Shown here piece after piece: positions 8,066 through 26,809 of a stretch of DNA of 32,934 nucleotides. Both the position numbers and the translations under genes were made by a program. Location: positions 1 through 32,934 of the forward strand of contig JAUWCJ010000014.1 in the NCBI GenBank assembly GCA_030609365.1. Direction: 5' to 3'. The notes under the pieces were generated by a model. The model did not search any database, had not been told where the DNA came from, and saw nothing but the letters and a program-made list of their open reading frames with translations. The stretch comes from Candidatus Eiseniibacteriota bacterium. GTDB taxonomy: Bacteria > Joyebacterota > Joyebacteria > Joyebacterales > Joyebacteraceae. Position 1 is the first letter of the stretch, and every line of letters begins with the position of its first letter.

Positions 8066-8761
8066 CTACTCCTCGGTCTTCTCCGGCTCCGGCTCGACTG
8101 CTGCATCTTCAGCCGCCGGTGCCTCCGCCGGCTTGACTGCCGCATCTTCAGTCGCCGGTGCCTCCGCCGGCTTGACTGCCGCATCTTCAGTCGCCGGTGC
8201 CTCCGCCGGCGTCTCCGCAGTCTCCTCACCGCCCGATTCCGCCGCTGCGCCTGCGTCGGATGTGTCCGCCGCCGCCTCCTGCGGTTCCGCCGTGGGTTCT
8301 GCCGCCGCCTCCTCGGCGCCAGTCGCCTCGGATCCTGCCTCGTCGGCCACGGGCTTCGCCTCATCCTCTTCGGCCGTCTTGGCAGTCTTCTTCGCCACCT
8401 TCACTTCTTCCTTCTTCCGCTTCTGCATGGCGGCCGCAGCCTCGGTCCGCTTGCGGGCCTCGTCCTCGATGTGGTGAAGCTCATCGTAGGGCTTGCCCTG
8501 GCGAACATGATGCCAGGTCTCCATGATCCCAACCCGAGAGAACAGTGATTTCACCGTCTCGGTCGGCTTTGCACCCTTGCTGAGCCAGTCGAGAACCTTC
8601 TCGGTATCGACATTGATGTCAGCGGGCTCCTTGAGGGGATCGTAGTAGCCCAGCTGCTCGATGAACCGTCCGTCCCTGGGCGCCCGTGAGTCGGCTACAA
8701 CGAACCTGTAGAACGCCCTGTGCTTCGCGCCCTTGCGCTGCAGTCTGATTCGTACTGCCAC
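8066..8761 (-). CDS. rpsP: 30S ribosomal protein S16 with a long Ala/Glu-rich C-terminal tail
   Basis: Residues 1 to about 85 are a normal S16 ([38 protein letters not shown]), a protein needed for 30S assembly. S16 is normally 80-100 residues, but this product is 231. After a bridging segment ([17 protein letters not shown]), the last hundred residues are low-complexity Ala, Glu, Pro and Thr. They include three near-identical 13-residue units of the form [13 protein letters not shown] encoded by 39-bp DNA repeats. The tail is acidic and probably disordered. The GTG start has a near-perfect AAGGAGG at 7 nt, consistent with high expression. The tail runs to the natural stop in frame with no break, so it is likely made. 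Confidence 0.96.
8101..8217. repeat. 39-bp tandem repeat inside rpsP
   Basis: Three consecutive 39-bp units occupy 8101-8139, 8140-8178 and 8179-8217. The first two differ at two positions and the third diverges only in its last bases. A partial extra copy (ggctcgactg) precedes the array on the plus-strand side. Each unit encodes 13 residues in frame, so a change in copy number would lengthen or shorten the S16 tail without a frameshift. Confidence 0.9.
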
Positions 8762-19436: not shown

Positions 19437-20609
19437 CTACAGCAACCCCTCCGCCAGAAGCGTGTACATGACCGAGTAGATCCTGCCCACTTCGGCGAGC
19501 GTCGCGACCCAGGCCGCGGGGCCGCCCTCCCAACTGAACTCGAGATCCACGTGCTGGAGAGACTCGAGGATCCTGAGCTGCGAGTTCGCCTTCGGTGGAG
19601 CATTCTCCGCAAGGAGAATGCTCTCCGTGTAGGGCATCAGGTTGTCATCGCGGCCGTGGACAATGATGAGACGCGCGGTCACGTTCTCGATGTTCCCCGG
19701 CATCGAGAGCTCGTCGAAGAAGCTGAGGATGCGGGGGTTCAGGCTGTCGATGATCCTGCCGGCGGCATCCGGATCATCGTTCATCATAAGCTCGTAGAGC
19801 TTCGAGCCCTCCTCCCCGAGCGAGTCGGCCGACACAGAGACGTCGCACCTCTCGTCCTTAAGCTTGGAGTTCGCTATGCGCGTGAGAAGCCGTCGGTCGG
19901 TCTCATCCTCTGCCAGCTCCAGGCTGTTCCGCAGGAATGCCCACTTCCCCGTGTGCCGCGGCTTCATGTAGACCCACTCCCCGTCCTCGAGGTAGTAGCC
20001 GGTCGTGGCGTAGGTGACGATACTCCTGAGATCGTAGTAGCTGCCCAGCAGGAAGCAGAACCGCACGCGCTCGGAGATGCGGGGATCGTTCGCGGCGAGC
20101 ACCGCGAGCCCGCCCGCGTAGCTGAAGCCGAAGAACCCCACTCGGTCGGGATCGACGTCGGGAAGCCGCTCAAGATACTCGTACGAGCCCACCATCTCGC
20201 CCACGTCCGAGGGCTGGACGTGGAACTCCTTCAGATTGATGAACTCGGGAACCAGCGCGACGTAGCCCACTCTCGCCAGAGCATCGGCGAAGTTGGTGAG
20301 ACGGAGGTCGTTCATGCCCCCGGCGGCCACACCGTGGTTCAGAACGATACCGGGGTGGCGCGCATCCGGCGAGCCTGAGGCCGGACGGTAGACGTCCGCG
20401 ATCATCGCGCGGCCGGCGGCCTCGAAGGTCACGCGCTCGAGCTTTGGGTCGGGCATGCGGCTCGCGATGGGTCCGTTCGTCTCCGGCGTCGGCAGCTCGA
20501 GCAACAGAAAGGTGGTCAAGTACGCCACGCGCATCCGCGGTCCCAGTGCGAGCAGCGCGATAGCCACGAGCACGGCACAGACCAGCAGTCGGGATCGTCC
20601 ACTCCTCAT
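19437..20609 (-). CDS. Membrane-anchored or exported alpha/beta hydrolase (dienelactone-hydrolase-like)
   Basis: The 390-residue protein begins with a hydrophobic segment (residues 8-23) after basic residues, a signal anchor or signal peptide. An alpha/beta-hydrolase domain follows from about 60. It has NHGVAAGG (91-98) for the oxyanion region, the nucleophile elbow GFSYAGG with Ser163, an acid in VHGRDDNLMP (Asp321 or 322) and His353 in QHVDLE. Dienelactone-hydrolase-like and prolyl-oligopeptidase-like enzymes share this layout; the substrate could be an ester or a peptide. The ATG at 20609 has AGGTGA 6 nt upstream, inside the last unit of the tandem array, and an in-frame TGA just before it fixes the start. 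It lies downstream of the pullulanase, but I see no functional tie to glucan use. Confidence 0.85.
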   Translation of the reverse strand: MRSGRSRLLVCAVLVAIALLALGPRMRVAYLTTFLLLELPTPETNGPIASRMPDPKLERVTFEAAGRAMIADVYRPASGSPDARHPGIVLNHGVAAGGMNDLRLTNFADALARVGYVALVPEFINLKEFHVQPSDVGEMVGSYEYLERLPDVDPDRVGFFGFSYAGGLAVLAANDPRISERVRFCFLLGSYYDLRSIVTYATTGYYLEDGEWVYMKPRHTGKWAFLRNSLELAEDETDRRLLTRIANSKLKDERCDVSVSADSLGEEGSKLYELMMNDDPDAAGRIIDSLNPRILSFFDELSMPGNIENVTARLIIVHGRDDNLMPYTESILLAENAPPKANSQLRILESLQHVDLEFSWEGGPAAWVATLAEVGRIYSVMYTLLAEGLL

Positions 20610-20610
20610 C

Positions 20611-20729
20611 GCGTGTCACCTGTCCGGGTAACGGGTCACCTGTCCGGGTTGCGTGTCACCTGTCCGGGTAACGGGTCACCTGTCCGGGTAGCGGGTCACC
20701 TGTCCGGGTAGCGGGTCACCTGTCCCGCG

Positions 20730-20730
<1 letters not shown>
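20611..20730. repeat. Six 20-bp tandem repeats carrying SD-like sequence
   Basis: Six head-to-tail 20-bp units run from 20611 to 20730 with consensus (g/a)cg(g/t)gtcacctgtccgggta. Only the first bases vary between units, and the last unit ends differently (cgcgc). The array fills the whole gap from the pullulanase stop to one base before the hydrolase ATG. Read on the minus strand, every unit contains AGGTGA, which is complementary to the 3' end of 16S rRNA (UCACCU). The copy nearest the gene stands at ideal spacing and is the gene's ribosome site. Units alternate partly as A-B-A-B, suggesting expansion by duplication of 40-bp pairs. Confidence 0.95.
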
Positions 20731-24080
<3,350 letters not shown>

Positions 24081-24176
24081 CGTTCCGTCCTCCTCTGGAG
24101 AACTGAGATGGTTTGGCTGTCGTGTGTCCGAGGAGTCTACCACATCCGGGTGCTCGTGGTGAGCAGGAGATGGGGC

Positions 24177-24242
24177 AATGAAAAGAGGAAGGGCTCCGCC
24201 GACAGAGCCGGCGAAGCCCCTTCAGTCCCCCCTCAGGGACTG
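24177..24242 (-). terminator. Terminator after the LVIVD-repeat gene (two hairpins)
   Basis: Right after the stop codon at 24251, CAGTCCC/GGGACTG (24223-24229, 24236-24242) forms a 7-bp stem. Next, an 11-bp stem with one G-U pair (24191-24201 with 24209-24219) is followed on the minus strand by ttcctcttttcatt. The second hairpin plus its T-rich tail looks like an intrinsic terminator. It separates the LVIVD gene from the pullulanase, which therefore needs its own promoter; only a weak TAGACT -10 candidate is visible near 24130. Confidence 0.75.
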
Positions 24243-24250
24243 CTCCCGTA

Positions 24251-26809
24251 CTAGCGCACAAGAAGAAGCTTGATGGACCTTTCGTAGTCCGCCGCCGCCA
24301 TGCGGCAGTAGTAGACGCCCGAGGCCACGGCCAGGCCGCGTTCGTCCCTGCCGTCCCACGTGACGCTCATAGCCCCCGCGGCCTGCGGGCCGTCAGTGAG
24401 CACGCGCACGCGCCTGCCCGCAACATCGAAGATCTCGATCTTCGCGGTCAGCCCGTCCCGCGGGATGTCGTACCTGACGGTGGTCCCGCCGCTGAACGGA
24501 TTGGGCGCGTTCTGCCTGAGCGCCAGCGATGTCGGCAGACCGTCGTCAATGCCAGTCTCGCTCTTGAAATATTCGATGAACATCCAGGTGCACGCCGGGT
24601 TCACCTGCCCGCTGCTGTAGTAGTGGGCAGACCGCCACATGAGCAGCGTGCCCGGGTAGACGAACTCGAACATGGAACCGTCTGCGACGATCAGCTCCCA
24701 GTGCTCCCCTCCGTCAGCGCTCACGTTCCATGCGATGTAGTCCGTCTGTAGGGTCACCAGCCTGGCGCTGATGATGTTGACGTGCGAACTGTCGATGATC
24801 TCGGAGACCGCGGTGTTGTTCTCCAGATCGAACCGGCGATGCTTGTGCTCGATCACGACGAAGCCGCCGTCGTGGTCGGCAACGTAGGCGTAGTCCCCGT
24901 CCACCGCCAGTCCGTACGACCATCCGTCCGTTTCGATGTCACCGAACAGAACAGGTGCGGTCGGGTCAGTGATGTTGTAGATCTGCAAGCCCCAGAACCC
25001 GATGGTCATGTAGGCGTAGTCGCCGGAGACCACAATGTCGTAGCCGCCGTCCGCGACGGCGCATCCACCAACGTAGACGGGCGCCGTCGGGTCAGTAATC
25101 CTGATGGAGAGAAGACCCGTCCCGACGTCCGCAACGAGCGCGTAGTCACCCTCAATGACCACTCCCCTGGCATCCCCTGGCACGGTGCACGTGCCGGCGA
25201 TGAAGGGAGCGGAGGGAACGCTGACATCGACCACCTGAAGCCCGGCAAGCCTGTCCGCCACGTAGACGTAGTCGCCCGCGACCGCAACGGAGTAGGCCGT
25301 TCCCGGCGTGTTGCACGTCCCGATGAGCAACGGGGTCCCGGGGTCGGTGATGTCGATCACCTGAAGACCCGACGTGCCGCCCGCGACGAAGGCGAAGTCA
25401 CCGTCTACGACGACGTCGTAACCGAAGCCCGTCGTGTTGTAGGCGCCGAGCAGAGTCGGGTTCGTCGGGTCCCTCACATCCAGGACGGTCAGTCCCGCGC
25501 CTCCGTCGGCAAGGTAGGCCTCGTTTCCTGCGACGTCCAGACCGTACACTCGGGAAGACGTATCGTAGTTTCCGATGATGGACGGAGCGAGCGGGTCAGA
25601 CACATCTATCACCTGTACACCTTCTAGTCTATCGCCGACATAAACGATGTCACCCTGGAGGGCGATCCCGTATGCGTCGCCGGGCGTGTCCAGTGTCGCC
25701 ACGACTTCCGGAGGGAGCGCGTCCGCTACGTCAATGATTTGAAGGCCACTGCAGGCGTCGGCGACGAACGCGTAGTCCCCCGCAACTACCACCGCCATGG
25801 CCCAATCGGGCGTATCGGTGGTTGACAGCGGCCGGGGATCAGTCGGGTCGCTGATGACCATGATGCGCAGGCCGCCGGTAGCATCGGCGACGTAGGCGTA
25901 TTCACCCTCGACACATATCCCGAACGCCAGGCTGGACGTCCTGTGTGTGCCCAGGAGCACGGGACTCATGGGGGCGGTCACGTCGATCACCTGGAGGTAC
26001 GAACTGTTCGGGGGCGGCCATCCCGTGTAGGAACTGACCACGTATGCCAGGTTGCCCCGGACATCGACGTCGGCGGCGTCCCCGGCGGTGGCGAACGACC
26101 CCATGTACACCGGATTCAGCGGGTCCCTGATGTCGACGACGACAAGTCCGTTGAGCTTGTCCGTGACGTACAGTATGTTGCCCTCGAGGCACACGCTCGT
26201 GGCCTCGTTCCCCACATCACAGAGTGCCACTATGACAGGCGCCGATGGCACGCTCACGTCAGCCACCTGAACCCCACCCGACCCGTCCGCGATGAACGCG
26301 TAGTTTCCGGAGACGACAATGTCGAGGGCGATCCGGAGCGTGGCCGTCGTTCCGACCACAGCGGGAGTCGCGGGGTCGCTGATGTCAACGACCGCCAGAC
26401 CCGACATGCCGTCGGCAACGAAGATGTAATCTCCCCAGAGTGCAAGTGCGGTCGCCGACCCGTCCGTCGCACAGCTCCCGACGAGTCCGGGGCTCGTGGG
26501 GTCGGTGATGTCCACGATCTGCAGGCCCCCGACGTCATTAGCGGCGATGTAGGCGTAGTCTCCATCAACGAGGACGGCGTTGGCCGGTCCCGGCGTCAGA
26601 TAGCTGCCAACGATCTGAGGCTGGCGCATGTGCAGCCGGATCGTCCCCTCTGTCGTGTCCCAGAACGCCTTCGTCTTCCCTACATCGCAGTACTCGAGCG
26701 ACATGAAGTCCTCGACGTACTCGTAGGCGCTGGTCTCCGCGGACCATGGCAACAACGCACAGATGAGCGTCACCGCCACCAGACCGATGGGACGCGTTCG
26801 AATCCTCAC
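24251..26809 (-). CDS. Secreted LVIVD-repeat beta-propeller protein with sorting domain
   Basis: This 852-residue surface protein has a signal peptide (about 1-28). A short lead-in (YVEDFMSLEYCDVGKTKAFW) then gives way to thirteen LVIVD repeats of about 42 residues each, plus a degenerate fourteenth. Each has the form VxGDYAYVADxxxGLQVIDITDPxxP. LVIVD repeats fold into beta-propellers; thirteen or fourteen units would make two seven-bladed propellers. A non-repeat domain (about 665-760, with FEFVYPGTLLMW) precedes a FlgD-Ig-like sorting module (about 770-852: NAPNPFSGG, FDVAGRRVR, ending LLLVR). The ligand or role is unknown; adhesion or display is typical for the family. The GTG start has GGGGAGG close by. 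It has one of the two best promoters in the window and its own terminator, so it is monocistronic. Confidence 0.92.
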   Translation of the reverse strand: MRIRTRPIGLVAVTLICALLPWSAETSAYEYVEDFMSLEYCDVGKTKAFWDTTEGTIRLHMRQPQIVGSYLTPGPANAVLVDGDYAYIAANDVGGLQIVDITDPTSPGLVGSCATDGSATALALWGDYIFVADGMSGLAVVDISDPATPAVVGTTATLRIALDIVVSGNYAFIADGSGGVQVADVSVPSAPVIVALCDVGNEATSVCLEGNILYVTDKLNGLVVVDIRDPLNPVYMGSFATAGDAADVDVRGNLAYVVSSYTGWPPPNSSYLQVIDVTAPMSPVLLGTHRTSSLAFGICVEGEYAYVADATGGLRIMVISDPTDPRPLSTTDTPDWAMAVVVAGDYAFVADACSGLQIIDVADALPPEVVATLDTPGDAYGIALQGDIVYVGDRLEGVQVIDVSDPLAPSIIGNYDTSSRVYGLDVAGNEAYLADGGAGLTVLDVRDPTNPTLLGAYNTTGFGYDVVVDGDFAFVAGGTSGLQVIDITDPGTPLLIGTCNTPGTAYSVAVAGDYVYVADRLAGLQVVDVSVPSAPFIAGTCTVPGDARGVVIEGDYALVADVGTGLLSIRITDPTAPVYVGGCAVADGGYDIVVSGDYAYMTIGFWGLQIYNITDPTAPVLFGDIETDGWSYGLAVDGDYAYVADHDGGFVVIEHKHRRFDLENNTAVSEIIDSSHVNIISARLVTLQTDYIAWNVSADGGEHWELIVADGSMFEFVYPGTLLMWRSAHYYSSGQVNPACTWMFIEYFKSETGIDDGLPTSLALRQNAPNPFSGGTTVRYDIPRDGLTAKIEIFDVAGRRVRVLTDGPQAAGAMSVTWDGRDERGLAVASGVYYCRMAAADYERSIKLLLVR

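Follow-up and report, generated by a model that had tools for sequence, protein, structure and literature searches.

A six-unit tandem array between a pullulanase and a hydrolase gene of Candidatus Eiseniibacteriota, probably a minisatellite derived from the ribosome-binding site of the hydrolase

In the window, the whole stretch of 32,934 nucleotides analysed here, a pullulanase gene and an alpha/beta hydrolase gene on the minus strand are separated by six head-to-tail 20-bp units, each carrying a Shine-Dalgarno (SD) sequence. With a probability of about three in four, we regard this array as a variable minisatellite that grew from the hydrolase gene's own ribosome-binding site (RBS), the proximal unit being the working RBS. 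The locus offers a clear example from nature of tandem duplication acting on an RBS. Moreover, the genus includes relatives with one copy, an intermediate, a start codon that was duplicated along, and two species about 2% apart whose arrays expanded differently.

Architecture of the array and its flanking genes

TRF detected the array at 20611-20725 of the window, with a period of 20, 5.8 copies, 90% matches and a score of 195. The preliminary description had placed it at 20611-20730; the array itself was confirmed, and its coordinates were one base off, the true position being 20610-20729 (Table 1). As had been described, six units fill the intergenic gap exactly, the gap between the two genes measuring 120 bp. 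The pullulanase gene terminates with the stop codon TAG at 20732-20730, and the first base of the hydrolase ATG is at 20609. Both flanking genes were named from Pfam matches, that of the pullulanase to Pullul_strch_C having an E value of 7.8e-61. Judging from its translation, the true pullulanase start is probably an internal ATG at 24080. Further along the minus strand, 24251-26809 encode an 852-aa protein in which 13 LVIVD repeat stretches are accompanied by a FlgD-Ig tail.

Table 1. Coordinates of the array, its units and the flanking genes in the window
Feature	Position	Strand	Evidence
Tandem array, six 20-bp units, whole intergenic gap	20610..20729	-	TRF score 195, period 20; gap length 120
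Unit 1, adjoins pullulanase stop; first bases CGCGGGACAGG	20710..20729	-	Gap comparison
Units 2-5, AGGTGA in each, start codon absent 3-13 nt downstream	20630..20709	-	
Unit 6, most likely the RBS in use; AGGTGA at 6 nt from ATG	20610..20629	-	SD kept in 6/6 same-genus genomes
Alpha/beta hydrolase gene behind the array, 390 aa, hydrophobic N terminus	19437..20609	-	Pfam DLH, weak (E 2.8e-05)
Pullulanase gene before the array, open frame from GTG	20730..24143	-	Pullul_strch_C, Pullulanase_N2, PUD, CBM_48

The core sequence GGACAGGTGAC is present in all six units. When one mismatch was allowed, six matches were obtained in the window, all of them within the array. Among 100 dinucleotide shuffles of the window, the mean number of such matches was 1.07 and none of the shuffled sequences reached six. 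Units 3 and 5 are identical and units 4 and 6 are one base apart, units 3-4 and 5-6 thus forming a near-perfect 40-bp pair. The A-B-A-B order noticed earlier is therefore real and marks a 40-bp duplication. No Rfam element was matched across the window.

Ribosome-binding sequence in each unit

The proposal that every unit contains a ribosome-binding sequence was borne out: AGGTGA occurs in all six and is complementary to the 16S rRNA 3' end of G001, another species of the genus, which ends GGATCACCTCCTTTCT. This anti-SD sequence was read from the 16S gene of G001; no 16S gene was found in the assembly of the window's own genome (G000). The six SDs of the window follow each other at a spacing of 20 nt, and the AGGTGA of the last unit ends 6 nt before the hydrolase ATG, in agreement with the distance given earlier. 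The unit next to the ATG is most likely an ordinary Shine-Dalgarno site. For five of the window's six SDs, the stretch 3-13 nt downstream contains no start codon.

In unit 6, the TGA inside the SD is an in-frame stop codon, which closes the frame upstream of the ATG. An in-frame N-terminal extension of the hydrolase was also considered, and was excluded in five of the six genomes by the TGA within the SD; G004 has an open frame ahead of the hydrolase, though one that contains no ATG, GTG or TTG.

Distribution in the own genome and in relatives

The G000 assembly comprises 2.78 Mb in 206 contigs and is 97% complete. It contains nine exact copies of GGACAGGTGAC, six in the array and three single. 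Tandem-repeat scans of the three single loci in G000 gave no array of the 20-bp unit. One of these single copies precedes the putative GTG start, read by eye, of a frame that appears HflC-like.

G001 to G005 are other species of the same genus (Candidatus Eisenbacteria MAGs). Hydrolase orthologues with 79-86% identity were found in all five of these genomes, and relatives with 45-60% identity in 7 of 14 other members of the family. The number of units before the hydrolase gene was six in G000, four in both G001 and G005, two in G003 (unit 1 of which has no full SD) and one in G002, with one diverged unit (AGGAGA) in G004. Hence, the variable copy number proposed in the preliminary description holds between species, each represented by one genome, and the expression switch that it was meant to provide is not supported. 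Inspection by eye of the gap before the hydrolase in seven genomes of other genera gave no such unit.

A pattern of two neighbouring units with at most 3 mismatches was also searched in 98 genomes. Five of them matched; four were the own genome or same-genus genomes with the match at the pullulanase-hydrolase gap, and the fifth (G070) had a single 3-mismatch site elsewhere. A search of the unit in its own and related genomes had been suggested beforehand, and it showed the array to be local, in one orientation and before one gene.

Growth of the array

A tree of nine hydrolase genes (midpoint root, three other-genus genes as outgroup) placed G002 and G004 outside, then G000, then G003 with the pair G001 and G005. 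Support was 98/99 for the fork uniting the four multi-copy species and 98/96 for the G001 and G005 pair. As the tree puts the one-unit genomes G002 and G004 outside, one unit is the likely early state. The end branches of G001 and G005 are 0.010 and 0.012, which separates the hydrolase genes of the two species by about 0.022 changes per site (about 2%). Because they carry different duplications at this small distance, the array turns over fast. In G001 the four units are a 40-bp block present twice (TRF period 40, 95%), and the duplicated block carries the gene's own start ATGAGG, with an ATG at -40. This upstream ATG is a duplicate of the hydrolase's own start. The four units of G005 arose in another way, with a 23-bp first step repeating spacer sequence, and are unlike those of G001. 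Since four units were arrived at through different duplications in the two species, and in one case the start codon was copied along, the array appears to have grown locally from the gene's own RBS.

In G001, G005, G003 and G002, but not in G000, the pullulanase stop is followed by a shared spacer of about 58 bp. The start of unit 1 in G000, CGCGGGACAGG, matches the spacer start CGCTGGACAGG of G001 and G005, which suggests that the spacer was lost in G000. Comparison of the gap sequences indicates that the loss probably occurred by recombination between GGACAGG repeats, unit 1 being the leftover junction. A MAFFT alignment of the gaps does not put the junction at this point, the alignment of such repeats being ambiguous.

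We thus propose the following course. The starting point would be one RBS unit (GGACAGGTGACNCGNN before the ATG), the state in the lineages of the genus that branched off early. In the narrow gap separating the two co-directional genes, this unit would then have been duplicated in tandem, giving a presumed two-unit intermediate; short direct repeats such as GGACAGG probably allowed slippage during replication or unequal exchange. From there, six units would have arisen in the species of G000 and, independently, four in two others, and the species of G000 would also have lost the older spacer. The upstream copies would most likely be passengers that hardly affect translation, if at all.

Distal units and alternative explanations

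The proximal SD stands at a constant spacing in all six same-genus genomes, as AGGTGA or, in G004, AGGAGA. In the proximal units, 1 of 16 distinct changes fell in the six SD columns (binomial P 0.026), and in the 12 distal units 4 of 21 did so (P 0.20). Six columns outside the SD (6-8, 15, 17, 18) were invariant in the distal units. Being based on few, related units and small numbers, these constraint tests may be taken as weak indications. AGGTGA is damaged in one distal unit each of G001, G005 and G003, or three of the seven such units in species other than that of the window; all five distal units of G000 have it intact. In the folding model, the unpaired probability of the proximal SD was 0.19-0.35 at any unit number, and that of the six SDs ranged from 0.18 to 0.48.

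Several findings count against the view that the upstream copies are passengers. In G000, AGGTGA is intact in all units and recurs every 20 nt, copies were gained on more than one occasion, and the modelled accessibility of the ATG increased from 0.32-0.34 with one to five units to 0.63 with six. Similarly, pairs of AGGTGA motifs 8-22 nt apart before an ATG numbered 18 in 20 genomes against 5 for the reversed pattern (15 against 5 without the pullulanase-hydrolase array); as a control the reversed pattern is crude, since its role as an SD already favours AGGTGA ahead of an ATG.

The intact SDs and their spacing, the repeated gain of copies and the modelled accessibility of the ATG also speak for a natural leader with multiple SDs, in which the additional SDs would capture or retain 30S subunits (standby loading) and increase hydrolase translation, copy number being a slowly evolving dial. 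There is an engineered precedent. In the study of Zhang et al. 2022 (PMC9723656), one to six RBSs placed head to tail before the GFP gene in B. licheniformis raised its output up to five-fold, and SD distances of 15-21 nt alone worked. The window array resembles these leaders in its head-to-tail RBS units, up to six, before one gene, and its 20-nt spacing lies within their effective range. However, the engineered leaders are synthetic, with a start codon and an own protein form for each RBS, and the gain was abolished when the leader start codons were removed (PMC9723656). In the window array, by contrast, the distal units have no start codon in range and a stop within the SD, and N-terminal extensions are impossible because the TGA of the SD is an in-frame stop. 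The damaged distal SDs of G001, G003 and G005 and the distal units' want of SD-specific constraint also oppose such a leader, which is therefore unlikely. Tuning of translation by copy number through standby loading, as put forward in the preliminary description, is not supported: five of the six SDs lack a start codon, the distal SD cores are not specially conserved, and the accessibility of the proximal SD hardly shifts with unit number in the folding model. Present evidence thus leans against it, and it is quite improbable that RBS copy number is an evolvable dial set by tandem duplication, with the upstream SDs that have no start codon acting as ribosome-loading sites. Natural leaders with 1, 2, 4, 4 and 6 units form a ready set for asking whether such SDs matter.

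Another reading takes the units as target sites of a regulator that binds DNA or RNA, on the ground of an imperfect dyad GG.CA..TG.CC recurring every 20 bp, which is close to two helical turns. The commonest unit forms four of the six dyad pairs, but only two or three pairs remain in 11 of the 18 units. A consensus scan of 20400-24400 identified no promoter-like site and no terminator in the gap, the former arguing against regulator sites, as do the want of a second array of the unit in G000 and of CsrA (PF02599) in the genome. We consider this reading very unlikely. Sites for CsrA itself were rejected: the protein was not found, and the first GGA of the unit is AGA in 5 of 18 units (column 5). 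Translational coupling to a leader ORF is doubtful in the extreme. On this view, duplications would give rise to short ORFs that lie upstream and terminate a little way into the hydrolase gene, handing ribosomes to its start. Indeed, the upstream ATG of G001 is preceded at 6 nt by the SD-like AGGTGG and opens a frame of 16 codons with its stop TAG at +9 to +11, and an ATG at -22 in G003 opens one of 10 codons ending at the same TAG. However, the gaps of G000 and G005 contain no ATG, so that a leader ORF is at most a by-product in two species.

The preliminary description had also allowed for a dispersed repeat that happened to land in the gap. In favour of a mobile element of this kind, for example REP-like, is the sequence GGACAGGTGACC, which we take to resemble REP-type ends. 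Against it, G000 holds the three further single exact copies of GGACAGGTGAC and no more, the array is bound to one gap in four species, and Y1 transposase (PF01797) gave no match in the 97% complete assembly. REP repeats mobilized by Y1 transposase (RAYT) were accordingly rejected, with nine exact cores, six of them in the array, in place of many copies, and no such transposase. The chance that a dispersed element is involved is therefore minute. The initial observation was right, the doubt about a dispersed repeat is gone, and the array is best described as a local, fast-changing minisatellite of the gene's own RBS.

Comparison with known repeats

Bacterial intergenic VNTRs and minisatellites consist of short imperfect head-to-tail units, differ in copy number between lineages and show higher-order duplications. 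The array agrees with them in having head-to-tail units of about 10-60 bp (period 20), a copy number that differs between related genomes, and 40-bp duplications of higher order. Unlike ordinary minisatellites, its unit contains the RBS of the next gene.

The nearest natural repeats found at start codons are the TAACTGA repeats and the mycobacterial interspersed repetitive units (MIRUs), both of which are dispersed. TAACTGA direct repeats of marine Beggiatoaceae lie just upstream of start codons and have a proposed role in translation (PMC4679880); they are 7 bp long, occur in 169 sets in one genome and have little SD character, whereas the array has a 20-bp unit with an SD in each and is confined to one locus. 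MIRUs are located at start codons between genes and contain translation signals. According to a review (PMC12548453), they are dispersed and apparently mobile, with an ORF coupled to the gene; in contrast, the array is local, and the window species has no such ORF. According to the discussion of PMC9723656, reports of genes having multiple RBSs have been rare, and among open-licence papers we found no described natural array of this kind.

Tandem arrays elsewhere

The TRF survey of G000 covered 392,934 bp (18 stretches of 20 kb plus the window) and repeats with at least 2.8 copies and a period of at least 8. It returned 25 rows, overlapping rows being counted separately. The pullulanase-hydrolase array was the top-scoring one outside long ORFs, which counts against its upstream copies being passengers. 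The next best outside long ORFs was a 14 bp x 4.9 array (L081:17994-18061), which immediately follows a stop codon, in the gap separating two co-directional genes, and lacks AGGTGA. Meanwhile, the pullulanase-hydrolase gap of G011, from another genus of the same family, contains an unrelated 46-bp x 3.4 array (L042:2446-2602), the units of which copy the pullulanase stop-codon region and have no SDs. The SD-free arrays at L081 and in G011 thus indicate that RBS sequence is no prerequisite for tandem duplication in such gaps.

Tandem repeats were also seen inside open frames. A 39-bp x 3.1 repeat with 96% matches lies in a long open frame at 8089-8210 of the window, and a 51-bp x 4.4 repeat at L089:5074-5297 is rich in AAG and GCG codons, its product resembling by eye a lysine-alanine histone-like tail.
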